Source: Hydrogenophilales bacterium 28-61-23 | GTDB taxonomy: Bacteria; Pseudomonadota; Gammaproteobacteria; Burkholderiales; Thiobacillaceae | Assembly (NCBI GenBank): GCA_002281555.1 | Contig: NCGJ01000004.1 | Location: forward strand, 124,001 to 188,000 | DNA: 64,000 bases | Direction: 5' to 3' | Shown: positions 1 to 31,064 of the stretch, piece after piece | How the letters are laid out: each line of letters opens with the position of its first letter | Numbering within the stretch: position 1 is the stretch's first letter | Position numbers and translations under genes: made by a program | The notes under the pieces: generated by a model | What the model saw: only the letters and a program-made list of their open reading frames with translations | What the model was told of the DNA's origin: nothing | The model's database searches: none

Positions 1-738
1 ACCGAATTCCTTCGAGTCAAATAGAAGTTCCGACTTAAGAATGTCGTAGTACTCAGTACCGCCATAGGGGGCCAACCCCATGGTTTTTCCTTCTTCGTTC
101 GTTTTGAAACCGATCTTTTTGGTAAAGGCCGCGTAAATTCCGCCAAGGCTATGACGAACCGGTAGCTCCCATAAGGTTTCGATTGAATTCCCTTTGCCGT
201 AGGCCAGGCAACCGGACAACTGGTCGCCTCCCGTCCGGGCCAGAGGCACTCCCTGCCCATCCACCACCATGATCGCAGCCTCTTCGAAAGGCGATGGTAG
301 GAATGCCTGGCAAGCGTGAGAAAAATGGTGTTCCGGCACCAGAAACTCGATCTTTGGATTTTTCTTCTGGAAAAATCGCCGCGCTTGCTCGTTATAGCGG
401 TAGCTATAAACGACGCAGTCGACATCGCCCAGTTCAACGCCACCCGCGCTCAACAGATAATCCAGAAGGGCTTGAAATTTAGGCAGGTTCTCGAATTCAA
501 TTGAATTCGGATCGACATCGAGATCAAACGGCAAATCCAGGTTTTTCTGGTAATTTTCTGGATCGCTGCGCCACCCGAAATCTTCGAGATCCAGTCTTGA
601 AATCGGCAAAAGAATGTCGTTTTTGATCCGCGTAATCCGTTCAAGGCTCGTCGCGACAACAATCTTTCCATCGATACACAACACACCGCTGAAGCCATGT
701 CCGCTCAGGGTAAAACTCAAAATACAGTTTCTTTTCAT
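1..738 (-). CDS. NodU/CmcH-family carbamoyltransferase, N-terminal part (cut by window edge)
   Basis: The frame is open for 246 codons from an ATG at 738 to the left edge, so the C-terminal half lies outside the window. Visible family motifs are the metal-binding HHFSHA near residue 139, VVDGQG near 161 and the GKTMGLAPYG signature near 221, all typical of the NodU/TobZ N-terminal (Kae1-like) domain. These enzymes transfer a carbamoyl group from carbamoyl phosphate through an adenylated intermediate to a hydroxyl of a sugar or antibiotic. As the last visible gene of the glycan cluster it probably carbamoylates a surface sugar. The acceptor cannot be read from sequence. The start is preceded by GGAAAC about 6 bases upstream. 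Confidence 0.85.
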   Translation of the reverse strand, partial: MKRNCILSFTLSGHGFSGVLCIDGKIVVATSLERITRIKNDILLPISRLDLEDFGWRSDPENYQKNLDLPFDLDVDPNSIEFENLPKFQALLDYLLSAGGVELGDVDCVVYSYRYNEQARRFFQKKNPKIEFLVPEHHFSHACQAFLPSPFEEAAIMVVDGQGVPLARTGGDQLSGCLAYGKGNSIETLWELPVRHSLGGIYAAFTKKIGFKTNEEGKTMGLAPYGGTEYYDILKSELLFDSKEFG

Positions 739-762
739 TTTGTTTCCAAAATCCTTAGTCGA

Positions 763-1452
763 TTAATCTCTTCGCCCAACTGGCACGGTGAGTTTTGCGG
801 CATTTATAGCCGACAGAAAACTTGCCGGATCGGCAAAGTAAGGGGCCAAAGTAGCCAGTATTTTGTCGTCCAGCTCCCACCATCTTGTATCGAGCATGCG
901 CAAGCGCATGCTCTCGGGAAATCGGTCCTTGATCGGACGGCACGGGACTCCAGCCGCTACGGTATAGGGTGGAATATCCCGGGTCACCACCGCTCCGGCG
1001 CCAATAACCGACCCGACACCGACACGGACGCCAGCCATGATCTTGGCGCCTTCGCCAATCCAGACATCCGCTTCAATCACTGTCTTGGGCGGTTTCTGGG
1101 AATGCCTATTTTGGCTCGAAAAGAACCGGGGCAGAGGCTGGGTATTGTCGTAAAAAACCGGGCTGGTGCTCACCATGTAAATCGGATGATTCATCAGACC
1201 AATCGTGACTCCGGCCGCTATCGAACAGAACGGCCCCACTTCAACCCCATAAAGCGCCGAGTTTTCCTGGGCATAGCTATAAGCGCCCAGGCTTGAGTCA
1301 ATCAGGTGCACATTGCGAAAAAGCACGGAATAGTCGCCCAATACACTGGAAGAATCGGCTGTAGCACCAGAATGGATCACGCTGGTGGGAAAGCAACGGC
1401 GTAGCCTGAACTCATACAGGGCACGTCTGATAAACATGGGGACAACGTTCAT
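763..1452 (-). CDS. left-handed beta-helix acyltransferase (XAT/CatB type)
   Basis: A 229-residue hexapeptide-repeat protein. The repeats run through roughly residues 25-160 ([19 protein letters not shown] is the last clear set). [11 protein letters not shown] near residue 90 resembles the catalytic-His loop of xenobiotic acyltransferases such as CatB/VatD. Such trimers move an acetyl group from acetyl-CoA to a sugar hydroxyl or amine in the cytoplasm. The chosen start at 1452 forms an ATGA overlap with the end of the upstream glycosyltransferase gene, which supports coupling. A longer start at 1470 would run into that gene. Its likely job is O- or N-acetylation of the glycan made by this cluster. 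Confidence 0.8.
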
Positions 1453-3287
1453 GCCCCGCTCCCGTGCCACCCCTTGTCCAGTAATTCATGGACAAATTCC
1501 AGGTTGCGTTCCAAGTTGCCTCCATCCAGAGGCCCGATGTATTTCTCCATCACGCTGTTCTCCAGAAAAGCGTCGAAGCGTCCGCTGCCAGCCAGAAAAT
1601 CACTGATTGCCTGCTCCAACCCAGCCACGTCGTACGTTGTAACCAACTCCGATTTACCGTCGAATGGCGGCTGCATGAGCTCCTGATCAGTCTTGTGATA
1701 GACGCAGGGAATGCCCAGGCAGGATGCTTCAAACAGCGTTTGGGAATAAATCGACACGAAGAAATCGGTTTCATCCAGCACTGCACGCATCGACACCCTA
1801 TCCTCAATGCGGTCAACCCGGTCTGGAAAGTATTCGTCAATGAACTGGCGATATTGCGAAGCGTAACCGTTGGCACGCACCTTGAGCACTACACGGAACT
1901 CCTGTCCTCGCCGGGACAGGTTTTCGATTGCCGTAAGCACCTCGGCCAGAAATGCAAATTCGACGGCCAAATAAGAATTCAGATCGATACTGTTGAATCC
2001 AGACGCGCCTATCGTGATAGTTGGCGTTGTTCGATTTATCGAACGCAAAGGAGCTTTCGCGTAATCATCCATGCGCGGATCCCCCAAGCAAACGATGTTG
2101 TCCATGCCCCTGAAATAGTGGTCGCGAATACTGGTTGAATAGGCATTGATTACGCTTGCATATTTACCTTCGTCAAGATATTCGCTAATCAGCATGCCGT
2201 TGATAATCAGGTAGACAGGAACACCGCGACTCCTCGCAACGCTATCGACCAACATGGCGACCTGACCCAGATTCGCGATCAGGATTTCCAGCCTGATCGG
2301 GTGTCGATCCAGGTATCGGATAACACATTCGAGCGTACGCAACGATTCAGGCAGAACACCGGATATGCGCTGCTCAATCAACCGATTGGCCGCATCCGTG
2401 ACATCGACCCCGGTCGACAGAACCAGACGCGCCACGCTCCTCTTTCTGAATTCATCGATCAAGCCGCGCGCATTCGACTGATATTTCTTTCTATTCCCGT
2501 AGACAGGTATCGGACGCTCGCGCAAAAACCTGGAAACACCGGGTGTGGCGGAGAAGTGCCCCTGCACGACCCGAACACCCGGCTGCCGCTGCAGTCGCAG
2601 CATCAATTTCCTGGTCGGGTGATATTCCTGCACAAAAACACGTGTCTTCGGGGCGAAGCCCTCGACCAATCGGTCGTACCAGCTCATGGCGATACCCTGA
2701 ACGATAGTCGCCCAATCCCGGATGACGTGACGCGTTCGACGGATACGCAAACGCTCGTCCGTCCAGCGATGAATCGGGAAAAAATAAGTGCCACGCTGTG
2801 TTAGGGCGACGCTTGGCAGCACGTTGAAATCAAGCCCCATGTCGCCCAGGATTTCTTCCATCAAGTCCTGTCCTGCGCCGACAAAAACCGACTCATAGCC
2901 AATAGTCCGCAATTGCTCCAGGCATAGCCGGCTACGCACGTAGAAGGTGAAATCGTTCCATATCTCGATGCGGAAGCTGAAGCCGAAGTCCACATCGCGA
3001 TAACGAAAAATATCCGCTCCGTTGGCATCGAGATGCCAGTCCCGGAAGAATCGGTACATGAGGAAATTGTTCTCCTGCATGAGCGACTGTTCGCACAAGT
3101 GGTCGACATAGCGCACCACACCGCCGAGCGCTTCCACTTCCCGCCGCAACCCGAAGTCGTAGGTCAGCACCAGATCCCGAGCGGGATCATAGAGAGGCCG
3201 CGCAACTGACCAGCAGTCGCGTGACTCCAGGATGAACACGTTCCGGAAAGTGGCCCCCGGCACGATAACGTTGCTATTCAGTTGCAA
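1449..3287 (-). CDS. GT-B-like glycan transferase of unknown specificity, TTG start
   Basis: A 612-residue protein with no signal peptide or membrane segment. I do not recognise a named family. The C-terminal third has the feel of a GT-B donor-binding domain: a [19 protein letters not shown] segment near residue 510 followed by a stretch rich in short helices, as in CDP-glycerol transferase-like and capsular glycosyltransferases. The start is a TTG at 3287, supported by AGGAAG six bases upstream (3294-3299). An ATG at 3292 is out of frame and stops after four codons. It sits between a methyltransferase and an acetyltransferase in the glycan cluster, so a role in building or modifying the surface glycan is inferred from context only. 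Confidence 0.6.
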
Positions 3288-3324
3288 CTCATACTTCCTG
3301 ATAGCGGGTCAGCCGTAAACGCGC

Positions 3325-4167
3325 TCAAGCAACCCGGCAGACGAAATGAATCAATGGACGCCCCTTGCTGCCCTTAACGGTCGGCATGCCCGTATCCATT
3401 ACAGATTCGATAGAAAAACCAGCGGCTTTGAGCGCCTTCTCCCAATACCACATCGGATAATCGCGATCCCCGAGTTTAGGGTCGTACAGATATCCCGACG
3501 ACGAGATCGACGGCGACAGCGGCCGGTAGCGATGCAGAAGGAGGTCGCGAACGACCCGAGCCGCGGCAGCCATCACGGAAACGAGATGCCGCCAGCCCGG
3601 CCAAGGTGTTTCGTTCAGGATGACGAGCCGCCCTCCGGGCTTGAGAGCACGACGAATCTCGATTAACACCGATTCCAGGTTGTCGGCATGGTGCAGGGCC
3701 GACGATGCGACGACAGCATCCAGATGCGCATCGTCGAACAGAAGCGGTTGAAACAATCCCTCAATGACCACGATTTTTTCCGGATGCCCGTTCATCAATT
3801 CGACCACTTGAGGCAACAGGGTGCGCAGAAAATGCCGGCTCGAATCGAGCGCATAAACCATTCGCACCGTATCGATCCGCGTCAACATGGCAACCAGCCA
3901 GCCGCCCCCACATCCGATATCGAGCACCTTGGCGTCGTGAGGGAGACAAGCCTTCCAATCCAGCTTCTCGGCCGCAGCGATGTAGTTGCAGGTTTCCCCT
4001 ACCGTGCGCAGGTATTCCCGCGCGCCCTGCAGATACGCATCCGATTCCGGATAGGCGCTGATCATCGCTTGATCGAACTGCGTAATCCCCCGGATTGTCT
4101 GCTCACCAATCCAGCTTTGGTCGTCTCGAGTCATTTCGCGATTTCTTGCATCAGTAGATAACGGCAT
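3325..4167 (-). CDS. class I SAM-dependent methyltransferase
   Basis: About 280 residues. The SAM-binding motif I is VLDIGCGGGWL near residue 85. The later ASSALHHADN and RALKPGGRLVILNE stretches match the Methyltransf_11 fold (UbiE-like). The start is ambiguous: ATG at 4167 gives a 19-base spacer after the preceding gene, ATG at 4134 is also possible, and neither has a strong ribosome site. The frame stays open further upstream, but that part only shadows the preceding gene. The enzyme probably O- or N-methylates a sugar of the cluster product; methylation of nonulosonic acids and of terminal O-antigen sugars is known in other bacteria. Confidence 0.8.
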   Translation of the reverse strand: MPLSTDARNREMTRDDQSWIGEQTIRGITQFDQAMISAYPESDAYLQGAREYLRTVGETCNYIAAAEKLDWKACLPHDAKVLDIGCGGGWLVAMLTRIDTVRMVYALDSSRHFLRTLLPQVVELMNGHPEKIVVIEGLFQPLLFDDAHLDAVVASSALHHADNLESVLIEIRRALKPGGRLVILNETPWPGWRHLVSVMAAAARVVRDLLLHRYRPLSPSISSSGYLYDPKLGDRDYPMWYWEKALKAAGFSIESVMDTGMPTVKGSKGRPLIHFVCRVA

Positions 4168-4186
4168 GTGCGAGCTTCGATACCCA

Positions 4187-5605
4187 TCAGTCTTGTGGAG
4201 AGAGACGCAATGGCTGTTCATTGACCAGGCATTGAACCAGGAACGCCAAGCGCTTCGCATACGGCGTAGCGTCGCGATAGACCACATACTGCGTCGCCTC
4301 CGCCAGAAGGTGTCTGGCATCGTGGTCTTGGGAAAGTCGAATAATTTGTGCAAAACACGCCGCCAAATCGGATTCCGCGTGGCATGCCACGACACCCGGC
4401 ATGGCAAGCACCTCTTCCACACTTTCGTATTGACACATCTGGTCCGGCGACAGCCATGTATTTCGTCCGTCCCCATAACAAATCATCAGACAGGGTGCGC
4501 CGTTCATCGCGCCTTCGACACCGAGCGTGGTGGGGGGGCAAACGACAGCGACAACGGCCTTCAATAGGGCTGGGTAATAGTCCAACTCTGCGTTGTTGAT
4601 GTAGGACTTTTCACTGTCGACCGCCTTGTCAAATCTTGACATGTAGTAGGCGGCAACCTGCCGATCGAGATGAACATGACTGAAATGGCAATCCGCGAAC
4701 GCTCGCTCGCCGGACCGCTTCATCATTTCGGGATGGGGCCGGAACAGGATCACATAGTCCGAGTACGCTGGATCGGATGATATGAATCGGTCGAGAATTT
4801 CGATGGCTGAGATGTCGTCAAACGGGATCGACGTCGCTGCGTACAGAATGATCTTCTTGATTTTAGGAATTCCATTGAATTCGTGGATATCGATTTCCGG
4901 CTTGGCTTCATCTTGCCGGAAATAGCGGTCAAACCTCGGCACCCCCAGCGCGACCACACGTTCACGCGGCACATTTTGCACGCGAGTCGCCTGATTGATT
5001 CCCTGCTGCCCCCAGACGCCAACACAATCAGGCGGTAAAGGCAGAACCCCCTTGCTGACCAGATTGTCCCAACTGTTGATCAACAACATCGACTTGATCC
5101 CTAGCTTCTTCGCCGTATAGGTCATGTCAATCGTGAAACTGTCCGCCGCCAGCGATGGTGCGATCACCGCCACGGGATTGATCCGGTGAACGATTTGCGC
5201 AAACTGCGCCCATGTCGGAAGACCGGCACGAACCGCCAGCAGGAAAGCTTCATAGACCACCGGCAATGCCAGGAACTTGTAGAACCCTGCCCATTTTTGA
5301 CGAACAAAGCGCATCTTGATGCTGAACGCCCTGGATTTCCGCGTGTGCTTGAACATCGTGACCGTCAGCAAACGACGCAGCAGAAACTTGCGGTAAGCCG
5401 GCTGCTCAACAACCGTGTACTCGGCGATCCCGAAATCCTTCAACATAGCCGGATCCCAATAGTCGCGAGCCACGACATAGTGCAGTTCATAATCGGCCCG
5501 TAACTGCTCGAACGCCCCCGCCCGAATCCAGTTTCTGAGGTAATTTTCATTCGAGATAAAAATCACCAGGGATTTTCGGTCATTCATGTTGATACTTGAA
5601 TCCAT
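4187..5605 (-). CDS. GT-B-fold surface carbohydrate biosynthesis protein
   Basis: 472 residues, cytoplasmic. The central SWDNLVSKG segment near residue 190, followed by VWGQQG and GVPRFDRYF, is a pattern I associate with putative glycosyltransferases in surface-polysaccharide clusters that share the CDP-glycerol transferase/GT-B core. RPHPEMMKRSG near residue 290 and PPTTLGVEGAMNG near 375 fit the donor-binding half. Donor and acceptor are unknown; because two CMP-sugar synthetases are nearby, a CMP-nonulosonate transferase is one possibility. Translation is taken from the ATG at 5605; the ATG at 5587 is an alternative. A 105-base gap separates it from the transketolase gene upstream. Confidence 0.6.
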   Translation of the reverse strand: MDSSINMNDRKSLVIFISNENYLRNWIRAGAFEQLRADYELHYVVARDYWDPAMLKDFGIAEYTVVEQPAYRKFLLRRLLTVTMFKHTRKSRAFSIKMRFVRQKWAGFYKFLALPVVYEAFLLAVRAGLPTWAQFAQIVHRINPVAVIAPSLAADSFTIDMTYTAKKLGIKSMLLINSWDNLVSKGVLPLPPDCVGVWGQQGINQATRVQNVPRERVVALGVPRFDRYFRQDEAKPEIDIHEFNGIPKIKKIILYAATSIPFDDISAIEILDRFISSDPAYSDYVILFRPHPEMMKRSGERAFADCHFSHVHLDRQVAAYYMSRFDKAVDSEKSYINNAELDYYPALLKAVVAVVCPPTTLGVEGAMNGAPCLMICYGDGRNTWLSPDQMCQYESVEEVLAMPGVVACHAESDLAACFAQIIRLSQDHDARHLLAEATQYVVYRDATPYAKRLAFLVQCLVNEQPLRLSPQD

Positions 5606-5710
5606 TGATTTGGGTACATTGATGCGGCATCGCTCGGCGTTAGCTCAGCGCCAAAACCGGCCGCTGAATTTCATTCAACTGGCTATCAGCAACTGCTTGA
5701 ACCGAACAGG

Positions 5711-7648
5711 TCAAAGCAATGCCCGAATTTTTTCGGCGATGAGCATACCTGTCAGGCCATGGAATTGAAGCACTTCGTCATTGCGCCCACAGGCCGGAAT
5801 GGTATTGAGCGCAAGTCGGTGCAGCTTCTTGTCGGCAAGCCCTAGCGTAGCCATGGCATCTGCCACCCGATCGCCTTGGCCGCCGATCAGGTAATGGTTA
5901 TCGATCGAGAAAATGGCTTTGTAGCCAGCCAATGTCTCAGCCAGCCAGCCGGCGTCGACATGATTCAGCCAGGGCAGATTGATGACTTTCACGGTGATTC
6001 CGTTCTCGCTTTTCAATATCCGCGCGGCCTGGATCGCCGAGGTCAACATGACTGGGCCGTAGGCGACGACAACCGCATCCTGGCCTTCAGTCAGGGCGAC
6101 GCCCTTACCCCACTCTGGCTGGTAAGCCGTCGGCAATGCATATGGCAGCACCCAGGGCAGACTGACAAGACGCAAGTAACTGCTGGACTTGTTCGTGTTG
6201 ATCGCCCAGTCCAGGAGCAGACCGACTTCCGCCTCGCAGGATGGCTCCATCATAACAAGGCCTGGCATGGCCGCTAATGCGGAGATGTCCCGCACCGCTT
6301 GGTGAGAATGTCCTGGCCCGCCGGGCACCACTCCCGCCAACGAACCCACATAAATGATTTTTTTCAACTCGGTGGCGTTGGTATAAATCTGCTCATTCGG
6401 CCTGGCCGACAAGAAGCAGGCGAAGGAATGAACGATAGGCAGCAGCCCCTGCAAAGCCATGCCTCCCGCCTGCGAAACCATGTCCTGCTCCGCAATTCCG
6501 CACTCGACAAAACGATCTGGGAATGCCTTCTGAAACGGAATCAGGCCTGTGTCGAGAATGAGATCCGCATCCAGTGCGACGATCTTCGGGTTCTTCCTCG
6601 CCTGCCCGATCAAGGCATCCGAGTAGGCGGCAATCAGGCGTTGCGGGTTTTCCGGCACAACGGCCGCGGGACGACTGACAGTTTCCAGTTCGAGTGCCGA
6701 GGTTCCGGCAGACTTCAGGCACGCGTTGGCGGCATCAATCAACTCCTGTGCGGCCTTGACATAGGCATCATCGGTCGGTGCGCCGCTGTGAAACTTGTAG
6801 AACTCGATATCGGAATCGATCGCGGTATGTTCCATAAAGGACACGCCCTTGCCCTTGATCGTGTCCGCGATGATTACTTTTGGCTTGTCCGTGACGTTTT
6901 TGCTGGCCGCAAGCGTTTGCGAGAAGGCATTCAGGTCGTTGCCATCACAACGGCTGACGTGCCACCCAAAGGCGGCCAACTTTGCTTCGAGATCTCCGAA
7001 ATCGCTGACCTTGGAAACCAGCGTATCCGATTGCAATTTATTGTGGTCGATGATGACGGTGAGTTCATGCAGCTTGTGGTTGGCGGCGGAAATCAGGGAT
7101 TCCCAGAACTGGCCTTCCTGAAGTTCGCCGTCGCCGGTCAGCACATAGACATTGCCAGGATGCTTAAGGAGGCGGTTGGCAAAAATCATGCCCTTGGCCT
7201 TCGAAACCCCCATGCCCAGAGAACCGGTATTGGTGACGATATTGGGTGTGGAAACATCGGGGTGGCCCGGCAGGCCACCAAGGCGGCGCAACTTGTCGAT
7301 CAATCCGAAATCCAGTTTGCCGAGACCGATCAAGGTGTTGTAAAGCGCTGGCGCATCGTGCCCTTTCGAGGAGAAGAAAATATCGCGTGGGGAGGTGATA
7401 TCGCCTTCAGGAGGCGTTCGGATTTCATTGAGTTGCAGCCAGGACATGATGTCCATGCTGCTGAAGCTGCTACCGATATGACCAGAACCGGCACAAGCAA
7501 TCATGTAAAGAGTATTGATTCGGCAGAGCGCCGCAAACAGAATCGCCCTCTCGATATCAGACACCGGCAAAGCACGAACACGCTCGAACTCCTTGTATGG
7601 CGCGTAATACAGCGTACCGCTGACGGCTACCCCAACTTGATCACCCAT
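5711..7648 (-). CDS. transketolase, full-length, embedded in glycan cluster
   Basis: A 645-residue ThDP enzyme with both transketolase halves in one chain. The N-terminal half carries GSGHIGSS near residue 55 and the ThDP/Mg motif GDGELQEGQ near 172 with the following DHNKLQSD. The C-terminal half has ECGIAEQDM near 385, whose Glu activates the cofactor, and PGGPGHSHQ near 444. The start at 7648 has GAGGAG six bases upstream, the best ribosome site in this stretch. Transketolases move a two-carbon ketol unit between sugar phosphates. Its place beside a cytidylyltransferase and a NeuB-type synthase suggests that it makes or rebuilds a sugar precursor rather than serving the general pentose pathway. 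Confidence 0.9.
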   Translation of the reverse strand: MGDQVGVAVSGTLYYAPYKEFERVRALPVSDIERAILFAALCRINTLYMIACAGSGHIGSSFSSMDIMSWLQLNEIRTPPEGDITSPRDIFFSSKGHDAPALYNTLIGLGKLDFGLIDKLRRLGGLPGHPDVSTPNIVTNTGSLGMGVSKAKGMIFANRLLKHPGNVYVLTGDGELQEGQFWESLISAANHKLHELTVIIDHNKLQSDTLVSKVSDFGDLEAKLAAFGWHVSRCDGNDLNAFSQTLAASKNVTDKPKVIIADTIKGKGVSFMEHTAIDSDIEFYKFHSGAPTDDAYVKAAQELIDAANACLKSAGTSALELETVSRPAAVVPENPQRLIAAYSDALIGQARKNPKIVALDADLILDTGLIPFQKAFPDRFVECGIAEQDMVSQAGGMALQGLLPIVHSFACFLSARPNEQIYTNATELKKIIYVGSLAGVVPGGPGHSHQAVRDISALAAMPGLVMMEPSCEAEVGLLLDWAINTNKSSSYLRLVSLPWVLPYALPTAYQPEWGKGVALTEGQDAVVVAYGPVMLTSAIQAARILKSENGITVKVINLPWLNHVDAGWLAETLAGYKAIFSIDNHYLIGGQGDRVADAMATLGLADKKLHRLALNTIPACGRNDEVLQFHGLTGMLIAEKIRALL

Positions 7649-7734
7649 AAATCACTCCTCAGGCCATAAACAAAATAACAAGCTGCGCCTTGATGGCATG
7701 GCTCGCTGGAAACATTTTTACGCGGTTCGTCGAT

Positions 7735-8463: not shown

Positions 8464-8497
8464 CGCTCAACCTGCCTAATCACCACATCCGAAGCCG

Positions 8498-9400: not shown

Positions 9401-9405
9401 GGGTG

Positions 9406-10584: not shown

Positions 10585-10600
10585 CGAATTACCCTGACCA

Positions 10601-13424: not shown

Positions 13425-13431
13425 CCTCCGA

Positions 13432-14463: not shown

Positions 14464-14464
14464 C

Positions 14465-17591: not shown

Positions 17592-17736
17592 CCAGAAAGT
17601 TCTCTCAAAGCAGTCGCCCAAGTAGCTGCTGATTTAACTGCCATCCCATGCAAGATGGAGTGACAAAAAACAAATCAATCGCCCCCCCAAGGAGTCTAGG
17701 CATTAATGACGACAAACCAGACAGAAGCGCTAGTAC

Positions 17737-20290: not shown

Positions 20291-20294
20291 AGCG

Positions 20295-20918: not shown

Positions 20919-20920
20919 GC

Positions 20921-22024: not shown

Positions 22025-22055
22025 TTTATTTTCACTCCTAGCTCAATTAGGTTAA

Positions 22056-23138: not shown

Positions 23139-23143
23139 TTCTC

Positions 23144-23812
23144 TCAATATCTTTCCCGCAACAACTGAAATGCCTCGGCCGCCATGAAACCAGACTGAGC
23201 CCCGCGCACTTGGGCCAATGCCCGCACCGCCGACTCACTTCGCGGGAAGGGAAATTCGCCCAACTCTGATTGATAGCAACTCAGCAACTGGAGTTTTCTC
23301 TCCAGGTACATACTGATATCGACAAAAACATTGGGTTTGAAGACCGCCTCGGCGTCCAGGATGCAATCTGTTTCTGACAATGTTTCATAGGCGAGAATGC
23401 GTTTTATTGATGGGTAACGGAACCATTTACTGCACGCCGCCACAGCCTCAAAAACAATGCGATGATCGGAATGGATGTCGTGTGCATATGGCACGAAAAC
23501 TTCCTCAGGTTCGAAGCGTTTGAACACTTGGGAAATACGCCCGACCAGTTCGCCTGTCGGCACCCGATCAAGTTTCGTGGTGGAAAACTCCAGTGAAAAC
23601 AGATTATCAGGTTTGATACACAGACCTTCACGGACTTGCAGAATCTCCCGCTCGCGCGCCTGTACCTTCGTGGAATCGTAACCATCTTTTTCCAAAACTG
23701 CAGTGATCAACAGCCACCCAACTGTTCCGCCTTCTGCATGCCGTCGTAGCAGCGCACCTCCGCAACCAAGCAATTCGTCATCTGGATGCGGGGCGACAAT
23801 CAACGTTTTCAA
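23144..23812 (-). CDS. PIG-L/LmbE-family N-deacetylase, TTG start
   Basis: 222 residues. The zinc motif AHPDDELLG at residues 8-16 and HDIHSDH near 110 define the family, which removes acetyl groups from N-acetylglucosamine-type substrates. The start is a TTG at 23812 that overlaps the formyltransferase stop (TTGA) and has GGAGAG five bases upstream. Coupling to a formyltransferase suggests an exchange of N-acetyl for N-formyl on an amino sugar of the legionaminic-type pathway. It is not part of the standard Leg pathway. Confidence 0.85.
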   Translation of the reverse strand: MKTLIVAPHPDDELLGCGGALLRRHAEGGTVGWLLITAVLEKDGYDSTKVQAREREILQVREGLCIKPDNLFSLEFSTTKLDRVPTGELVGRISQVFKRFEPEEVFVPYAHDIHSDHRIVFEAVAACSKWFRYPSIKRILAYETLSETDCILDAEAVFKPNVFVDISMYLERKLQLLSCYQSELGEFPFPRSESAVRALAQVRGAQSGFMAAEAFQLLRERY

Positions 23813-24690
23813 AGATACTCTCCGACAGACATATTCACTGATGGCTCGATTTGAAGCAGTCGAATGGCGCCCTGGCCAGTATTAACAACGACACCCCGCG
23901 CATCACTTGCAAGCACCTTACCCGGCTCAAGGTTAGGTTGGAAGGTTTCAGTGATCTCGGTACGCCACACCCTGATGTCTTGTCCGTCACGCATGAAGTG
24001 GGCGCCGACATAGGGCCGCGTCAAGCCGCGCACCAGATTATGTATAGATAGCGCCGACATGCGCCAATCGATTTGCCCATCCTGTCGACCGCGCTTGCGC
24101 CATGTGTTTCCAGAGCCCTGCTCTTGCGGTCGCCGAACAAAAGTGCATGCACTCAGAAGCGGTAGGAATTCCTCAATCTGCGATAAAGCTACTGCTGTCA
24201 TTCTGGAATACAGGCTGCCAGCATCATCTTCAGCAAGGATAGGCAGAACACGTTGCGACAGGATATCGCCTGTATCCGCGCCTTCATTCATGAAAAAAAA
24301 GGTCGAGCCAGTTTCCCTCAAACCCAGCGCAAGCGCCCAGATGAGCGGATGACGCCCTCGATTGGCAGGCAACAGAGTCGGGTGATAGCCCACAACCCCC
24401 ATGGCTGCCAAGTCCAACAAAGGCCGCTTGATCAGACGCGACCATCCGAAACAAAACACAACATCAGGCTTTAACGCAGAAATCCACTCCAGCGTCTCTT
24501 GACTATTGATATCCGATGCATATCGCACCGGGATCGCCGCGCCTTGGGCGATCGCTGTCAAATCCAGATGATCAGCATTGAAGACAGAGGCTTCCAGCGT
24601 GCACACCCCCACCACATTCGCATGCAACTCGATCAGCTTTTGTAGCGCCTTGGCCGAGAATTCGACCGCACCGATAAAAAGAATTTTCAT
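23809..24690 (-). CDS. formyltransferase-family protein with atypical active site (GYH)
   Basis: 293 residues of the methionyl-tRNA formyltransferase/sugar N-formyltransferase fold. HPTLLPANRGRHP near residue 103 and GADTGDIL near 138 correspond to the catalytic His and Asp loops. The family's catalytic Asn, two residues before the His, is Gly here (GYH instead of NxH). The conserved surroundings argue against a dead gene; a sub-family with changed chemistry or substrate is likelier. It starts in a TAATG overlap with the epimerase gene and is coupled to the PIG-L deacetylase. Donor would be formyl-tetrahydrofolate if active. Confidence 0.8.
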   Translation of the reverse strand: MKILFIGAVEFSAKALQKLIELHANVVGVCTLEASVFNADHLDLTAIAQGAAIPVRYASDINSQETLEWISALKPDVVFCFGWSRLIKRPLLDLAAMGVVGYHPTLLPANRGRHPLIWALALGLRETGSTFFFMNEGADTGDILSQRVLPILAEDDAGSLYSRMTAVALSQIEEFLPLLSACTFVRRPQEQGSGNTWRKRGRQDGQIDWRMSALSIHNLVRGLTRPYVGAHFMRDGQDIRVWRTEITETFQPNLEPGKVLASDARGVVVNTGQGAIRLLQIEPSVNMSVGEYL

Positions 24691-25847
24691 TACTGTGTCA
24701 GATCGTGAAACCGCTTTTTGAGCAGATCATTGAAGGTTATCTGTTCCAGATTCCGCACGATTGCCTCACTGGCACCGCCGACGCCATATGGATTTTGCAC
24801 GCTCGACAAATCAGCCTGGAAACTTGGTTCATAAAGCCTTTGCAGAGCTTGAGCGATAGCCGCCCTGTTTGGCTCACACTCAATCACGCTTGCCGCCTTC
24901 AATCGACCCCGCTGCCGATCGCCGATATTGATGGAGCCTTTTTTGAAGCTGGGCACCTCTATAAGTCCGCTTGATGAGTTGCCGACTACGGCATCCACCT
25001 GCGCGATGGCTGATAAATAGCGAAGCTGGCCCAGCGAGGTATAGGCCTTGGCATAGGAACGCTGGGCAACGAATGCTTCAATCATCTCAAACAGCACACG
25101 CCCTCCGGTATCGGCATTGGGCATGGTGAAAATGAGATGCGTATCTTGCAGCGCATCCAAGGCCGCCAAGAGCTCCCCCATCTGCGCTGCCGCAGTGTCT
25201 TGCTCCAAGGTGACCGGATGAAAGGTAATCAGTAGATTCCTCTTGCCAAGCTTGAAATCCAGTGATGCCTCCAGCGCAGAGCGGTCAAGTAACGGCAACT
25301 TGAGGATATTATCGATGCCCAGTCCGCCCACCAGAAACACCCGCTCTGGGTCTTCGCCCAACTGAATGACGCGCTGGCGATACTCCTCGGCAGCAACAAA
25401 ATGCAGATGAGACATTTTGGTGATGGAATGCCGTATTGGTTCATCGATGAGCCCCTCGGTCGCTTCTCCGCCGTGCAGATGAGCGATAGGGATGCGCGCA
25501 ATCATCGCGGCGGATACGGCGGCGAATATTTCGTAGCGGTCGCCTAGTACCAGCACCAGATCAGGATTCAAGGCAGCGAAAGCATCGGCGAAACCAATCA
25601 TCGCCAGGCCCATTGATTTCGCCACGCCAACAGCCGTATCGGAGCTGAGCAACATTTCAACTTTGCGGTCGATCATGAAGCCATCGGCTTCAATCTCACG
25701 ATAGGTCAGTCCAAACTCCGGCGAGAGGTGCATGCCTGTCGCGATCACCTGCAATTCCAGCTCAGGCGACCGCTGAATTCCATCCAACACCCAACGCAAC
25801 AAACCGTAATCGGCGCGGGTACCGGTAACGACACAGATCTTTTTCAC
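24690..25847 (-). CDS. neuC: hydrolysing UDP-GlcNAc-type 2-epimerase (NeuC/LegG)
   Basis: 385 residues. TGTRADYGLL at residues 8-17 and HGGEATEGLIDE near 124 are hallmarks of NeuC/LegG; GNSSSGLIEVPSFKKG near 298 is the conserved nucleotide-release region. The enzyme hydrolyses the nucleotide-linked sugar and inverts C2, here presumably a GDP- or UDP-linked 2,4-diamino-6-deoxy sugar, giving the free mannose-configured acceptor for the synthase. The start is a GTG at 25847 overlapping the synthase stop. It stands in the usual neuC-neuB arrangement. Confidence 0.9.
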   Translation of the reverse strand: MKKICVVTGTRADYGLLRWVLDGIQRSPELELQVIATGMHLSPEFGLTYREIEADGFMIDRKVEMLLSSDTAVGVAKSMGLAMIGFADAFAALNPDLVLVLGDRYEIFAAVSAAMIARIPIAHLHGGEATEGLIDEPIRHSITKMSHLHFVAAEEYRQRVIQLGEDPERVFLVGGLGIDNILKLPLLDRSALEASLDFKLGKRNLLITFHPVTLEQDTAAAQMGELLAALDALQDTHLIFTMPNADTGGRVLFEMIEAFVAQRSYAKAYTSLGQLRYLSAIAQVDAVVGNSSSGLIEVPSFKKGSINIGDRQRGRLKAASVIECEPNRAAIAQALQRLYEPSFQADLSSVQNPYGVGGASEAIVRNLEQITFNDLLKKRFHDLTQ

Positions 25848-26845
25848 AACGTAATCAATTCGTCTGTGGCGAAGTCACACCCAGCCGCGCGCCCGATAAC
25901 TTCATCCCAACGCATCGGCGATATCCCGGAACCAGGGCGCTTGGTGGTTAGATTTTCTGACGAAAATATCTCGCCCCTACGAATGGCCTTGGCGGCCACT
26001 AACGATTTGCGGACGATAGGCCTGTTCTTCGCCTCGCTCGCACTCGGTCGCTTGATGCCGTCGCCTAGCGCCTGTTCGATGTTGCGAATGGCCGAGACCA
26101 TTGCCTTAAGCTCATCGGGTTCCAGGCTGGCCTTGTGGTCGGGGCCTGGGAGATTGCGATCCAGGGTGAAATGTTTCTCGATCACCGATGCCCCCAGAGC
26201 CACTGCAGCAATCGGCACCTCAATGCCAGGCGTGTGGTCGGAATACCCCACCGCCACGCCAAGCGCCCGGCCAATATTGCCCATCGCCAGCAGATTTACA
26301 TCGGACATAGGCGTGGGATATTCGGTGTTGCAGTGGAGCACCGTAATGCGCTCGCGCGGAGTACCCGCAGTTTCCAGTACATCCAGCGAGGCTTCGATTT
26401 CACCCAGCGTCGCCATGCCGGTTGAAATGATGACCGGCTTGCCCAACCCTCCGATATGGCGCAAATAAGGCAAGTTGGTAATTTCGCCAGAAGGGATTTT
26501 TATACGATCCACGCCAAGCTCAACTAAAAAATCAACGCTTTGTATATCGAAGCCAGTACTACAAAAAACAATGCTCTGCTGCCGGCAATGCTCTATCAAC
26601 ACCCCGTGCATCTCACGTTTGAGCTCCAGGCGATGCAGCATGGCGTGTTGGGATTCGGCCGCATCCGTGGTTTGAGTTTGGTAAGCGGCCTTTTTGGCTG
26701 CGGCAGTTGCGAGGCGGTCCGCCGAGAAGGTCTGGAACTTGACCAGATCGGCCCCCGCTTCAGCCGCGATTTCGATCAGGCGTTTGGCCATATTGATATC
26801 GCCATTATGATTTACACCAGCCTCGGCGATGATTAGCGTTTTCAT
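25844..26845 (-). CDS. neuB: NeuB/LegI-type nonulosonic acid synthase, module B
   Basis: 333 residues: PEP-condensing barrel plus C-terminal SAF domain (about 275-333). AEAGVNHNGD at 7-16, KFQTFSAD near 36, KIPSGEITNLP near 116 and EKHFTLDRNLPGPDH near 222 are the standard NeuB/LegI motifs. It condenses phosphoenolpyruvate with an N-acylated mannosamine-type sugar to give a nonulosonic acid. With LegB, LegC and LegG homologues beside it, a legionaminic-acid-type product is likely. It overlaps both neighbours by four bases (ATGA/GTGA). Confidence 0.92.
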   Translation of the reverse strand: MKTLIIAEAGVNHNGDINMAKRLIEIAAEAGADLVKFQTFSADRLATAAAKKAAYQTQTTDAAESQHAMLHRLELKREMHGVLIEHCRQQSIVFCSTGFDIQSVDFLVELGVDRIKIPSGEITNLPYLRHIGGLGKPVIISTGMATLGEIEASLDVLETAGTPRERITVLHCNTEYPTPMSDVNLLAMGNIGRALGVAVGYSDHTPGIEVPIAAVALGASVIEKHFTLDRNLPGPDHKASLEPDELKAMVSAIRNIEQALGDGIKRPSASEAKNRPIVRKSLVAAKAIRRGEIFSSENLTTKRPGSGISPMRWDEVIGRAAGCDFATDELITL

Positions 26846-27732
26846 TCGAAACGATCCCCTACTTTTAATTTAAGTTCAGTTGTCCAATCGGTGACTCGAA
26901 CAAAGGAATCTGCCGTCTTTACCACAAACGAATCCGAATCAACCTTAATAATCGCCCCTGCAATCCCCTTATAAGAAGGCGCACTATCCACTAAACACAC
27001 CCTGTTTATCCTTACTTCTTTAGTCGCGACAACCCCCCTCGCTTCTGGACCTGGACGACAAATCGCCCGAACAAAATTAAATACTTCCCGGGACGTCATA
27101 CTCCAATCCAGATTCTCATCACCTTCTTTTCTAGCGCTACAATAAAATCCAGTTGGATGTATTTCAGACTGTTTTATTCGAACAACATTGCCAGCCTGGA
27201 TTTTTTTAATTGCGTCATAGAGAACCTGCCCGCACCCAGAGTATGCTCGCTCCAACAAAGTTGCGTAATCATCAGCATCTGTAATAGGGTATGTTTTTTG
27301 CAGGATTATGTCGCCCGTATCGATGCCGTCATCAACATAATGAACGGTTATACCAAATTCAGCTTCATCGTTGATCAGAGCCCAGTTAATAATATTTCGG
27401 CCTCGATAAAATGGCAATTTACCCGCATGACAGTTTATTATCTTGTATTTTGTAGCATCAATTAATCGCTGCCGGAATATCTGATTAAAAGACATCGAAA
27501 CAAAGATATCACACCCATACCGCTCAATCTGGCCCACAAACTCATCCGAATTAACTCTTGGATGAGTCAGGAATGGAATTCCGTTCTCGGCAGCAATGCG
27601 CGCCAAATCCTGATCAGGCCTGTCACTCCTTGCGCAAATAAATGAGACTGAAAGAGTGGCATCCTCCAGAAGTTTATAAAGAGCCCGATGAGACCAAGGA
27701 CCATCTGCGAAATATCCAATTTTCATATTCAT
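26842..27732 (-). CDS. sugar N-formyltransferase
   Basis: 296 residues. The catalytic Asn and His are in INCHAGKLPFYRGRN near 98 and the Asp in DDGIDTGDII near 133, so the Asn-His-Asp set of formyltransferases is complete. It should use formyl-tetrahydrofolate to formylate a free amino sugar. It overlaps the LegC-type aminotransferase gene by four bases, the place where an N-acetyltransferase (LegH) is expected. That suggests the amino group made by LegC is formylated, giving an N-formyl nonulosonate. The gene is A+T rich compared with the aminotransferase and dehydratase beside it. Confidence 0.87.
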   Translation of the reverse strand: MNMKIGYFADGPWSHRALYKLLEDATLSVSFICARSDRPDQDLARIAAENGIPFLTHPRVNSDEFVGQIERYGCDIFVSMSFNQIFRQRLIDATKYKIINCHAGKLPFYRGRNIINWALINDEAEFGITVHYVDDGIDTGDIILQKTYPITDADDYATLLERAYSGCGQVLYDAIKKIQAGNVVRIKQSEIHPTGFYCSARKEGDENLDWSMTSREVFNFVRAICRPGPEARGVVATKEVRINRVCLVDSAPSYKGIAGAIIKVDSDSFVVKTADSFVRVTDWTTELKLKVGDRFE

Positions 27733-28892
27733 GTCAGCCCTGCACTGCTCGGAATATTGACGATGCGACGTTCAAGCGATTCGGCAACCGGCAACTCTGC
27801 GCGCGGGCAGTTTGCATACGGCGTCAGGCGATGCATCGGCGTCCAGGCCGGGCGGGTCATCAGGCCGGCGTCGTTGGTCGCGGCCAGGATGTCGTCGCGC
27901 CGGTCGGCCGAGGCCTCATCGAGCAGCAAGGTCTGCAACCAGTAGTTGCTGCGGCAAGCCGCGGGTTCTTCAACGATATGCGCGCCCGCGATGTCCGAAA
28001 ACGCAGCGCGATAGCGCTGGAACAATTGCCGTTTGCTGTCGAGAAAGCCTGGCAGCTGTTCGAGTTGCGCGCAACCCAGCGCCGCGTTGATGTTGGGCAA
28101 CCGATAGTTGTAGGCCACCATGTCGTGCTCGAACAACCAGCGATGCGGCAATTTGGCCGTCGTCGTGATGTGCTTCGCCAACTTGGCCAGATCGGCATCG
28201 TTGGTCAGGATCGCGCCGCCGCCGCCGGTGGTGATGATCTTGTTGCCATTGAAACTGAGCGCCGAGAGCCGTCCGACGTTGCCGGTATGTCGTCCCTTGT
28301 AATACGAACCGAGCGATTCGGCCGCATCTTCGATCAGCTCAAGGCGAAAACGCGCGGCGACATCGGCCAGCGCATCGAGATCGGACGGATGGCCGAAGGT
28401 ATGCATGGGCAGCAGCGCCCGGATGCGACGTCCGGTAGTACGGTTGAAGCAGGCGCCGGCGCGAAGATCGGCGTTGTTTTCGAGGTAGTCGCGCAATGCG
28501 GGCGCGGCCATGCCGAGTGTGGCTTCGTCGACATCGACAAAGTGCGGCACGGCGCCGCAGTAACTGACCGCATTGGCGGTGGCGACGAAAGTCAGCGCTG
28601 GCATCAGCACCTCATCGCCCGGTTCAACTCCGGCCAGTTTCAGGCAGATGTGCAGCGCGGCGGTTCCGTTCACGACCGCGACCGCATGGCGCGCGCCGGT
28701 TGTTTCGGCCAGGTCATGCTCGAAACGGTCGACGAACTTGCCGACCGACGAAACCCAACCCGTATCCAGGCATTCCTTGACGTAGGCCCATTCATTCCCG
28801 GAAAAATGAGGCTCATGCAAAGCCAGCGGGCCGGGTGGAACGACCGTGCGCAGCGCCGCGATAACGGCTTCCGGCGTCAGGCTAGATGACAT
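27729..28892 (-). CDS. legC: LegC-type PLP aminotransferase
   Basis: 387 residues of the DegT/DnrJ/EryC1 family. The PLP-binding Lys is in SFNGNKIITTGGGG near 196 and the Asp/Ala region in IEDAAESLGS near 167. It transfers an amino group from glutamate to the C4 keto group made by the LegB dehydratase. The N-terminal segment LHEPHFSGNEW is typical of the LegC group. It overlaps the dehydratase end by 11 bases and the formyltransferase by four. G+C is high here, unlike the next gene. Confidence 0.9.
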   Translation of the reverse strand: MSSSLTPEAVIAALRTVVPPGPLALHEPHFSGNEWAYVKECLDTGWVSSVGKFVDRFEHDLAETTGARHAVAVVNGTAALHICLKLAGVEPGDEVLMPALTFVATANAVSYCGAVPHFVDVDEATLGMAAPALRDYLENNADLRAGACFNRTTGRRIRALLPMHTFGHPSDLDALADVAARFRLELIEDAAESLGSYYKGRHTGNVGRLSALSFNGNKIITTGGGGAILTNDADLAKLAKHITTTAKLPHRWLFEHDMVAYNYRLPNINAALGCAQLEQLPGFLDSKRQLFQRYRAAFSDIAGAHIVEEPAACRSNYWLQTLLLDEASADRRDDILAATNDAGLMTRPAWTPMHRLTPYANCPRAELPVAESLERRIVNIPSSAGLT

Positions 28893-29880
28893 AGGTATCG
28901 GACTTGTACATCCTCAGGTTTTCCGGGTTGGAGAACCAGACGGCGGTTTCCGCCAGCCCCCGCTTCATGCCTTCCCGACCGGCATACTCGGGCGCCCAGC
29001 CGGTGAGTTCCAGCGCTTTGGCGTTGTTCGCCCAGAGACGGTCCACCTCGCTTTTCTCCGGGCGCAGACGTACCGCTTCAGTCTCGATCTCGATCTCGAC
29101 ACCCATCGTTTCGGCGATCATCCGCACCGTTTCGCCGATAGACACCTCGAAATTGCTGCCGATGTTGATCACTTCGCCGATGGACCGGCTCGATTCGGCG
29201 ACGGCGAGAAAGCCACGTACCGTGTCTTGCACAAAATTGAAGTCGCGCGTCGGATGCAGCGCGCCCAGCTTCAATTTGCGTTTGCCATTGGCGATCTGGG
29301 TGATCACAGTAGGAATGATCGCGCGCGCCGACTGGCGCGGGCCATAGGTATTGAAAGGTCGGATCACGCTGACCGGCGTATCGAATGCGTTGTAGAACGA
29401 CAACGCGATCTGGTCGCTGCCGATTTTGGTCGCGGAATACGGCGACTGCCCTTGCAGTGGATGCGCCTCGTCGATCGGCACATAACGCGCCGTGCCGTAA
29501 ACCTCGCTGGTCGAGGTGTGGACAACCTTGGCGACGCCCAGATCGCGCGCAGCCTGGACGACATTGAGGGTGCCCTTGATATTGGTATCGACGTAGGTAT
29601 CCGGGGAATGGTAGGAGTATGGAATGGCGATCAATGCCGCCAGATGCAACACCAGGTCGCATCCCTCCATCGCCTTGCGCACGCCATGGGGATCGCGAAT
29701 ATCGCCGGCAAAGACCTCAAACTGACCGCGCACATCGGGCCCGCATTGATCCAGCCAACCCCAGCTATTGAACGAGTTGTACAACACGAAAGCACGTACC
29801 GAGTAACCCGCGCGGATCAAATGCTCAGTCAAATGCGAACCGATAAAACCATCCGCTCCGGTCACCAGTACTTTTTTCAT
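28882..29880 (-). CDS. legB: LegB-type NAD-dependent sugar 4,6-dehydratase
   Basis: 332 residues of the extended SDR class. TGADGFIGSHL at 7-17 binds NAD; HTSTSEVYGTA near 120 and YSATKIGSD near 147 hold the catalytic Ser/Thr and Tyr-x3-Lys. RPFNTYGPRQSARAIIP near 173 is characteristic of LegB/PseB-like dehydratases. It starts the legionaminic pathway by making a 4-keto-6-deoxy nucleotide sugar. ATG at 29880 has GAGG eight bases upstream and overlaps the end of a possible small reading frame. Confidence 0.9.
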   Translation of the reverse strand: MKKVLVTGADGFIGSHLTEHLIRAGYSVRAFVLYNSFNSWGWLDQCGPDVRGQFEVFAGDIRDPHGVRKAMEGCDLVLHLAALIAIPYSYHSPDTYVDTNIKGTLNVVQAARDLGVAKVVHTSTSEVYGTARYVPIDEAHPLQGQSPYSATKIGSDQIALSFYNAFDTPVSVIRPFNTYGPRQSARAIIPTVITQIANGKRKLKLGALHPTRDFNFVQDTVRGFLAVAESSRSIGEVINIGSNFEVSIGETVRMIAETMGVEIEIETEAVRLRPEKSEVDRLWANNAKALELTGWAPEYAGREGMKRGLAETAVWFSNPENLRMYKSDTYVI

Positions 29881-30041
29881 TCAGAACACCTCTGTTGCCA
29901 GGCCTCAAAGTCGGGGCAAATCGCCGCGAAATTGCGCCTGGCGGCCGGCGGATCGAGATCGTTTTCGCGTTTATTGCGCGCATGGCACGCTACAGCGATA
30001 GGGATTGCTTTACCCCGGTTGGCGACGAAACCCTTTAGCAC
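29877..30041 (-). CDS. possible small ORF between epimerase and legB
   Basis: A GTG at 30041 opens a 54-codon frame ending in TGA that overlaps the legB ATG as ATGA. The product is basic, with ACHARNKREND near residue 18 and FEAWQQRCSE at its end. No ribosome site is seen before the GTG. The frame is the same as the upstream epimerase and begins just after its stop, so it could also be the tail of a longer ancestral gene. No family is recognised. It fills the 176-base gap between the two genes. Confidence 0.35.
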   Translation of the reverse strand: MLKGFVANRGKAIPIAVACHARNKRENDLDPPAARRNFAAICPDFEAWQQRCSE

Positions 30042-30056
30042 AAGCGGCTCGTAAAT

Positions 30057-31064
30057 TTATTGGCCGGTATAGTCCCGATACCACTTCGCCCAATTGGCTA
30101 TCCCCACCGCCAACTCGGTTTTCGGCTCGAATCCGACATCGCGCTTGAGGTCGTCGATATTGGCATAGGTGGCGACGACATCGCCCGGCTGCATCGGGAG
30201 GAAGTTTTTCTTCGCTTCCTGGCCGATGGAATCCTCAATCGTCTTGATGAAGGTCATCAGCTCCACCGGCTGGTGGTTGCCGATGTTGTAGACGCGGTAA
30301 GGCGCATAGCTGGTGCCGGGATCGGGCGCGTCGGTGGTGAAGTCGGGGTTGGGCGTGGCGATTTTGTCGAGCACGCGCACGGTGCCTTCGGCGATGTCGT
30401 CCACATAGGTGAAGTCGCGCTGCATCTTGCCGTGGTTGAACACGTCGATGGTGCGGCCTTCCAGAATCGCGCTGGTGAACAACCAGGGCGACATGTCCGG
30501 CCGACCCCAGGGGCCATAGACCGTGAAATAACGCAGGCCGGTGGTGGGCAGGCCGTACAGATGGCTGTAGGTATGCGCCATCAACTCGTTGGCCTTTTTG
30601 CTGGCGGCGTACAGGCTGACCGGGTGATCCACGTTGTCGTGCACCGAGAACGGCATATGGGTATTGGCACCGTAGACGCTGGAACTGCTGGCGTAGACGA
30701 AGTGTTCGACGTTGTTGTGCCGGCAGCCTTCGAGCAGGTTGCCAAAACCGACCAGGTTGGTCTGGATGTAGACGTAGGGGTTCTTCAGCGAGTAACGCAC
30801 GCCGGGTTGGGCGGCGAGATTGATAACGCGGTTGAATTTCTCGGCGGCAAACAGGTCTTCAACCGTGGCGCGGTCGGCAATATCGCCGCGCACAAATTTG
30901 AAATTGGGATAGGGCTTGAGTTGTTCGAGGCGAGCCAGCTTGAGTTTGGGGTCGTAATAGTCGTTCAGGTTATCGATACCGACGACGGTATCGCCGCGTT
31001 TGAGCAAAATTTGCGCGACGTGCATCCCAATAAAACCTGCCGCGCCAGTGACTAAGACTTTCAT
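30057..31064 (-). CDS. UDP-glucuronate 4-epimerase-like NAD-dependent epimerase
   Basis: 335 residues. TGAAGFIGMHV at 6-16 binds NAD; the active site is SSSSVYG near 126 with Tyr/Lys in YAASKKAN near 152. IDNLNDYYDPKLK near 35 is typical of UDP-glucuronate 4-epimerases (LspL, WbnF), which make UDP-galacturonate. It is the first gene after the cluster promoter, so it probably feeds an acidic hexose into the same glycan or lipopolysaccharide. The ATG is 28 bases from the predicted promoter -10 box. Confidence 0.87.
   Translation of the reverse strand: MKVLVTGAAGFIGMHVAQILLKRGDTVVGIDNLNDYYDPKLKLARLEQLKPYPNFKFVRGDIADRATVEDLFAAEKFNRVINLAAQPGVRYSLKNPYVYIQTNLVGFGNLLEGCRHNNVEHFVYASSSSVYGANTHMPFSVHDNVDHPVSLYAASKKANELMAHTYSHLYGLPTTGLRYFTVYGPWGRPDMSPWLFTSAILEGRTIDVFNHGKMQRDFTYVDDIAEGTVRVLDKIATPNPDFTTDAPDPGTSYAPYRVYNIGNHQPVELMTFIKTIEDSIGQEAKKNFLPMQPGDVVATYANIDDLKRDVGFEPKTELAVGIANWAKWYRDYTGQ

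Follow-up and report, generated by a model that had tools for sequence, protein, structure and literature searches.

Two predicted ulosonate modules in one operon

The 64,000-nucleotide stretch of DNA analyzed here, referred to as the window, corresponds to C4:124001-188000 of the 3.5-Mb draft genome (30 contigs) of Hydrogenophilales bacterium 28-61-23, and it contains a probable surface-glycan operon in which two gene modules, each predicted to serve a 3-deoxy-2-ulosonic acid, lie one after the other. Among plasmid-collection records, those closest to the 16S fragment of the genome (866 bases) are betaproteobacterial (Niveibacterium, 90.6%). From window position 31064 down to base 1 the cluster genes form one run and are all on the minus strand; coordinates below are window positions unless a contig or locus is named. 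Between LegB (29880) and the transketolase-like enzyme TKT (5711) the genes overlap or almost touch, the largest gap being 115 bases (17622-17736), and a simple promoter scan of 12500-18800 gave 0 sites, with shuffled sequences averaging 5.0. The island has a G+C content of 54.1%, compared with 63.3% and 60.0% for its flanks. A preliminary description of the window had presented a 31-kb cluster. It is one run, but it does not end at base 1 of the window and continues for ~8.9 kb, to C4:115146.

Two of the three NeuB family matches in the genome are encoded in this run: the synthase of module A, NeuBA (13432-14463; 220 bits among the genome's matches, 219 bits in the Pfam annotation of the window), and that of module B, NeuBB (25844-26845; 332 bits). 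Each module has its own PF02348 cytidine monophosphate (CMP)-sugar synthetase, CMPsynA (7735-8463) and CMPsynB (17737-18486), and between the modules is an ABC exporter-like protein (14465-16267), a candidate MsbA/PglK-like flippase whose family matches are below cut-offs, the best NCBIfam match being PglK with 333 bits against a cut-off of 1000. This arrangement is as the preliminary description had it. Its two PtmA-like short-chain dehydrogenases (SDRs) are reduced to one: the module B protein (16245-17024) exceeds the PRK09186 cut-off (337.6 bits, cut-off 255; PtmA 246.1, cut-off of 350 not reached), and the module A protein, SDRa (12106-12969), is under cut-off for both PRK09186 (152.7) and GolD/DthD (162.3) and resembles polyol dehydrogenases of the GolD/DthD kind. 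That one operon provides two different CMP-activated 3-deoxy-2-ulosonic acids is supported at the sequence level.

Judged by its gene content, module B is a near-complete Campylobacter-type pathway for legionaminic acid (Leg) through guanosine diphosphate (GDP) sugars, with formyl and amidine tailoring, and is of a known kind. The identification made in the preliminary description stood, since the LegB 4,6-dehydratase (28882-29880; 531.2 bits) and the LegC aminotransferase (27729-28892; 545.8 bits) exceed their curated cut-offs of 475 and 420. The hydrolyzing 2-epimerase of the NeuC/LegG type (24690-25847; 492.1 bits, cut-off 235.9) adjoins NeuBB, a LegI-type synthase (502.3 bits, cut-off 399.65) that keeps Arg314 and Glu134 (Neisseria NeuB numbering, used throughout). 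A protein with CBS and sugar-1-phosphate nucleotidyltransferase matches (22056-23147) is presumably PtmE-like and part of the GDP route, and a Gfo/Idh/MocA family oxidoreductase (18432-19469) is, by its position, presumably PtmF-like; with the PtmA-like SDR and the Leg enzymes they make up what we take to be the Campylobacter GDP route. CMPsynB is LegF/PseF-like. It is over the cut-off for Pfam CTP_transf_3 and under that for PseF (139.7 bits, cut-off 205.7), and it passes no curated LegF-type cut-off, no LegF model being among its NCBIfam matches.

Two sugar N-formyltransferases (number 1 at 26842-27732 and number 2 at 23809-24690, both over the Pfam and under the NCBIfam cut-offs) and a PIG-L family de-N-acetylase (23144-23812; family match) suggest N-formyl groups on the product. 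An amidine group is suggested by the WbuX N-acetyl sugar amidotransferase (20921-22024; 317.2 bits, cut-off 203.2), the HisH-like amidotransferase (20295-20948; 219.8 bits, cut-off 105.4) and the HisF-like (WbuZ/AglZ) amidination partner (19466-20290; WbuZ 223.9 bits, under its cut-off of 299.7). The best candidate for a LegH-type N-acetyltransferase is a hexapeptide acyltransferase (17025-17621) whose NeuD match, 60.1 bits, is under the cut-off of 160.8, and the formyltransferases may take the place of such an enzyme. The product of module B would thus be an N-formylated and/or amidinated legionaminic acid made by the GDP route. At the head of the run is an NAD-dependent sugar epimerase/dehydratase (30057-31064; family matches). 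In a genome of the same genus (G006) a NeuB is 73% identical to NeuBB, but its cluster is built differently.

An aberrant synthase in a conserved cassette

NeuBA belongs to the NeuB superfamily, having the NeuB domain (PF03102) and the SAF domain (PF08666) and unchanged phosphoenolpyruvate (PEP) and metal residues. It is nevertheless below both NCBIfam synthase cut-offs, with 243.4 bits for TIGR03569 (N-acetylneuraminate synthase; cut-off 399.65) and 204.9 for TIGR03586 (cut-off 340.25). In a 40-row NeuB tree it falls in a clade of 24 rows with support 100/99, comprising 21 close cassette synthases (NeuBA included) and three distant ones, whereas NeuBB groups with the Escherichia coli K1 NeuB (98/94) and the third NeuB of the genome with the pseudaminic acid (Pse) synthases. 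The preliminary description had held that its two-sugar idea would fail if both synthases and both cytidylyltransferases were each of one functional type; the synthases are in different clades and CMPsynA and CMPsynB are only 35% identical, so at this level of comparison the two modules stay apart.

Several residues set the clade off. Arg314 of the SAF domain is present in all 16 rows outside the NeuBA clade and in none of the 24 inside it, NeuBA having Ile; Glu134 is Glu in the same 16 rows and Asp in all 24 clade members; an HRE motif is found in 24/24 clade rows and 0/16 others. The alignment around Arg314 is gapless, yet NeuBA has a basic residue one place earlier, and its structure may be locally shifted there. 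For Neisseria NeuB, Arg314 is held to position the N-acetyl group of N-acetylmannosamine, and the R314K mutant is given as active and R314A as inactive (PMC6795526). Because Arg314 has been lost while the PEP and metal residues are kept, NeuBA appears to be a synthase that condenses PEP with a substrate lacking the customary 2-N-acyl group. It is highly probable that module A makes an acid other than neuraminic (Neu), legionaminic or pseudaminic acid.

Seven further genes complete module A, and none of the eight encodes an aminotransferase, a 2-epimerase or an N-acyltransferase. All eight reading frames are open and their catalytic residues are kept. The KdsC-like phosphatase of the preliminary description was found at 12915-13451 (HAD, of the KdsC or Kdn 9-phosphate phosphatase type; Kdn is the deaminated nonulosonic acid 2-keto-3-deoxynononic acid). 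At two places all 17 aligned rows have Glu and Lys instead of the Arg and Thr of E. coli KdsC; we take these residues to be marks typical of Kdn 9-phosphate phosphatases. A NeuB-type synthase, a HAD phosphatase and a CMP-synthetase stand together in one operon, as would be expected of a Kdn 9-phosphate pathway. SDRa is a polyol/sugar dehydrogenase by its family matches, and at least 90% of 23 rows retain its YxxxK motif; the catalytic Cys and Glu motifs of the aldehyde dehydrogenase ALDH (10601-12103) are kept in at least 90% of 22.

Enol (9406-10584) resembles the acid-sugar dehydratases of the enolase superfamily (MR/MLE) and has retained its metal ligands, one Lys and the His that acts as base; Enol and the nine homologs compared with it have Asn at a position that we take to be that of the acid His of the superfamily. 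The ApbA/PanE-like 2-keto acid reductase ApbA (8498-9421) keeps a Lys, a Glu and an Asn, presumably with their roles in the reductase site, and does not keep other PanE residues. The CMP-synthetases of 20 other cassette loci share 44-99% identity among themselves and 28-33% with CMPsynA, whose type was otherwise found only in cassette L025 (63% identical). We considered whether Enol and ApbA define this CMPsynA type and dropped the idea, since L025 has the type and no Enol was found in its record.

TKT (5711-7648) is a transketolase-like thiamine-diphosphate enzyme with replacements at the presumed phosphate site. In the numbering of human transketolase, the thiamine-site residues His37, His77, His110, His258 and Glu366 are kept in all 22 TKT rows aligned. 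Arg318, Ser345, His416 and Arg474, which we take to bind the sugar phosphate in transketolases, are replaced in 22/22 rows, as is Asp424, and all five are kept in E. coli TktA and in this genome's canonical transketolase. The same four are given as active-site residues of human transketolase (PMC8016368). TKT is 21.9% identical to E. coli TktA, 23.9% to the genome's own enzyme and 29.7% to the human chain; a single-sequence structure prediction was of no use (mean pLDDT, a per-residue confidence score, 38.9). At locus L017 the place of TKT is taken by a split transketolase of another lineage, encoded by two short open reading frames (L017:14116-15885), 32% identical and non-orthologous, and the transketolase step seems to be needed because a non-orthologous enzyme fills the place. 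The idea that all cassette transketolases use unphosphorylated donors was dropped, because this split enzyme keeps Arg318, Ser345 and His416.

Module A is not peculiar to this genome. A pattern-based scan of bacterial and archaeal genomes, which covered close relatives of NeuBA, gave 21 loci with 65-86% identity in proteobacterial, Zixibacteria and Bacteroidetes records, among them Methyloversatilis thermotolerans 3t and Rhizobium leguminosarum Tri-43; one locus is cut inside the gene, leaving 20 for comparison. Downstream of NeuBA the genes follow in one shared order: HAD is present in 17 of the 20 loci, SDRa and ALDH in 18 each, a CMP-synthetase in 17 and a transketolase in 18, with extra genes such as methyltransferases between ALDH and the CMP-synthetase in L011, L016 and L018. 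Loci L022 and L023 have NeuBA and HAD but no SDRa, ALDH or TKT over the stretch covered, possibly a simpler form of the pathway. A separate sample started from TKT: among 398 genomes of the phylum, at a threshold of E 1e-100, five were positive including this one, and the other four all encode relatives of the synthase (39-71% identical), HAD, SDRa, ALDH and CMP-synthetase. Three of these four have one cluster split by 13-20 kb, and in the fourth the synthase is ~200 kb away. Three of the four synthases are the distant members of the NeuBA clade; the remaining one (71% identical, not in the tree) likewise carries Ile where Arg314 would be. Two genomes that share a genus (L080/L072 and L081/L073) have synthase, HAD and SDRa some 13-16 kb from ALDH, CMP-synthetase and TKT.

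No NeuBA ortholog turned up when 22 further genomes of the genus were searched, the best hits being at most 40% identical, and 102 plasmid records gave no close relative of NeuBA (all below 60% identity). We read cassette A, from this distribution, as old, mobile and recently acquired here. The preliminary description had missed that module A is conserved and widespread as a cassette, and that its synthase and transketolase are aberrant. Module A is probably a horizontally mobile cassette whose product is an acidic sugar not described before, given that its synthase lacks a residue kept by the known sialic-acid-type synthases and is accompanied by a transketolase, an aldehyde dehydrogenase and a sugar dehydrogenase.

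What module A may make

We put the probability at roughly 60% that module A provides a distinct ulosonate, tailored by SDRa, ALDH and TKT, beside the legionaminic acid of module B. From the observed gene content, gene order, conservation, clade separation and residue losses we infer the following substrates and products. NeuBA would condense PEP with a hexose 6-phosphate that has no 2-N-acetyl group to give a nonulosonate 9-phosphate, from which HAD would take off the phosphate. SDRa would then oxidize the C8 hydroxyl beside the freed CH2OH, creating a terminal ketose end that could serve as a transketolase donor, and TKT would transfer C8-C9 away as a two-carbon unit. The new C7 aldehyde would be oxidized by ALDH to a carboxylate, giving a 3-deoxy-hept-2-ulosaric acid like Dha (3-deoxy-lyxo-2-heptulosaric acid), and CMPsynA would activate this C7 ulosaric acid with CMP. 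As an option in this window, Enol could eliminate the 5-hydroxyl and ApbA could reduce the resulting 6-ketone; the hydroxyls at C5 and C6, beside the new carboxylate, would become a 5-deoxy-6-hydroxy unit, and the product a 3,5-dideoxy acid. The clipping itself, with loss of C8-C9, is a tentative proposal that we hold to be less likely than not. The cassette as a complete chain-shortening pathway to an ulosaric acid, combining a new NeuB class, a transketolase clip, end oxidation and CMP activation with an optional 5-deoxygenating enolase and reductase, is more doubtful, and the 5-deoxygenation by Enol and ApbA is unlikely.

Several observations weigh against the pathway set out above. The deep branches of the synthase tree are long, and the tree program issued a long-branch warning. 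Immediately before position 134, NeuBA has Phe and NeuBB has Gly; Phe marks Pse synthases and Gly Neu and Leg synthases, a rule mostly, not strictly, kept in its authors' words (PMC7371886). The 21 close members of the NeuBA clade have Phe and the three distant members Gly, and because of this split the configuration at C2 of the product is unsure. HAD is under its cut-offs, among them that of the Kdn 9-phosphate phosphatase model NF058599, and is absent from three of the 20 loci; SDRa, ALDH and TKT are each absent from two (L022 and L023, the latter a 9-kb contig). The split transketolase of L017 keeps three of the five residues replaced in TKT (not Asp424 and Arg474). In most TKT rows an Arg or Lys is found two positions ahead of 318, and the contact may have shifted. 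Enol and ApbA are present in 0/20 comparison cassettes, the five Enol homologs looked at elsewhere have no cassette genes in their vicinity, L025 shares the CMPsynA type and no Enol was found in its record, and a search for Enol in the genomes of L025, L026 and L009 (Methyloversatilis thermotolerans), made without a positive control, gave 0/3.

The two loci without SDRa, ALDH and TKT fit a plainer account, in which NeuBA, HAD and CMPsynA alone make Kdn or an isomer of it and SDRa, ALDH, Enol, ApbA and TKT build another, co-inherited part of the glycan, for example an acyl or sugar-acid substituent; so does the match of HAD to the Kdn 9-phosphate phosphatase model, at 82.3 bits (cut-off 180). 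We consider this account rather unlikely, since SDRa, ALDH and a transketolase accompany NeuBA in 18/20 loci and in the four further genomes, and such co-occurrence was judged too tight for an unrelated pathway. The transketolase might also work in the opposite direction, transferring a hydroxyacetyl unit of two carbons to an aldehyde or ketone that SDRa had produced, to form a C11 or C-branched ulosonate, with ALDH clearing an aldehyde by-product. An SDR is able to make a ketone, the thiamine site of TKT is kept in every row, and thiamine enzymes that branch sugars, such as YerE, exist. This scheme appears improbable to us given that ALDH is as constant as TKT and yet would stand outside the main chain of reactions.

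If the altered residues of NeuBA were of little consequence, module A could make a second N-acylated acid of the sialic type (Neu, Leg or Pse), and the synthase does still score 243.4 bits with the N-acetylneuraminate synthase model and has the Pse-type Phe. With both curated cut-offs missed, Arg314 lost in 24/24 clade rows, and aminotransferase, 2-epimerase and N-acyltransferase not among the eight genes, there is little to recommend this. Equally hard to credit is that only one module is expressed, or that module A is a decaying import; the low-GC island and the 22 same-genus genomes searched without a NeuBA ortholog would agree with it, but the eight open frames with their catalytic residues would not. 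The tailored ulosonate thus remains the reading we favor. The cassette represents a NeuB class outside the Neu/Leg/Pse scheme in bacteria of several phyla, and its product could add a new constituent to surface glycans. If the clipping is real, surveys by C9 masses would miss that product, there would be a route to C7 acids in which sialic-acid-like sugars are trimmed, carried by gene transfer into several phyla, and a transketolase would be acting in surface-sugar synthesis.

Genome setting and relation to known systems

Downstream of module A the run continues with a GT-B-like transferase (4187-5605; weak Glyphos_transf and BFO_1060-like matches), a candidate ulosonate transferase, and with a reading frame containing a methyltransferase domain (3325-4476), whose start is doubtful because it overlaps the preceding reading frame by 290 bases. 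A 612-amino acid protein (1449-3287) without a Pfam match and with weak similarity to the BFO_1060 glycosyltransferase might be the enzyme that transfers one of the two acids; a single-sequence structure prediction was of no use here either (mean pLDDT 33.7). A hexapeptide acyltransferase (763-1470; family match) and the start of a 595-amino acid carbamoyltransferase (1-738; family match) that continues out of the window follow. The ~8.9 kb outside the window hold the carbamoyltransferase, two epimerases, three GT2 glycosyltransferases and a 950-amino acid protein (L005:9146-11998; C4:115146-117998) whose C-terminal half (489-914) contains a MurJ flippase domain and whose N-terminal half has no family match. 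Immediately beyond the low-GC island are a DegT aminotransferase (510 amino acids) and a Polysacc_synt_2 dehydratase (650 amino acids; together L005:3539-7020). The window has no Rfam matches at the gathering threshold and no tRNA matches.

A third nonulosonate set, for pseudaminic acid, is on another contig (L006:11567-17637; C7, ~233.6-239.6 kb) and exceeds curated cut-offs with PseI (488.9 bits, cut-off 340.25), PseG (283.8, cut-off 153.55) and PseC (567.4, cut-off 423.5). A 1587-amino acid protein with glycosyltransferase-like and methyltransferase-like stretches (L006:6807-11570) adjoins this set. The genome therefore has three NeuB synthases, as does Campylobacter jejuni. The preliminary description had thought a cell with two nonulosonates notable; two ulosonates are supported here, but this is not new, since C. 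jejuni NCTC 11168 makes N-acetylneuraminic acid, Pse and Leg according to a study (PMC7371886) that also predicts nonulosonate products from NeuB sequence.

Within the open-licence PubMed Central literature (subscription papers being outside the search) we found no description of the A cassette, and a transketolase beside a nonulosonate appeared only as a pentose-phosphate entry in a table. No paper there brought a transketolase together with NeuB, an aldehyde dehydrogenase and O-antigen, and none on a Kdn 9-phosphate phosphatase came up. We know of no nonulosonate pathway that uses an SDR, an aldehyde dehydrogenase and a transketolase of this kind. For module B the parallel is close. In C. 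jejuni, CMP-legionaminic acid is made through GDP sugars by Ptm and Leg enzymes, the route reportedly being described by Schoenhofen in 2009 (cited in PMC6137143), and module B likewise has LegB, LegC, LegG, LegI, a LegF/PseF-like CMP-synthetase, PtmE-, PtmF- and PtmA-like genes and WbuX in one run. In contrast to C. jejuni, it adds two N-formyltransferases and a PIG-L deacetylase, includes the HisH and HisF partners within the run, and has no clear LegH. Halorubrum sp. PV6, which has 5-N-formyl-legionaminic acid, carries a predicted formyltransferase gene in its Leg gene set (PMC6137143), whereas module B has two formyltransferases, amidination genes and a GDP-type nucleotidyltransferase.

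Module A has counterparts at the level of single steps. As in the Kdn pathway of Bacteroides thetaiotaomicron, which consists of Kdn-9-phosphate synthase, a phosphatase and CMP-Kdn synthetase, it has a NeuB-type synthase, a C0-type HAD phosphatase and a CMP-synthetase in a row; unlike that pathway it adds an SDR, ALDH and TKT, and our tree holds no characterized Kdn-9-phosphate synthase. Dha, which occurs in the plant polysaccharide rhamnogalacturonan II and in some bacterial polysaccharides, is a C7 ulosaric acid, the same type of product as proposed here, although its lyxo configuration would not, by our own reckoning, follow from a mannose-type precursor; no bacterial pathway for Dha has been described to our knowledge. 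TKT, finally, is of the same sequence family as canonical transketolase and keeps its thiamine-site residues, but differs from it in the replacement of the presumed phosphate-site residues and of Asp424.

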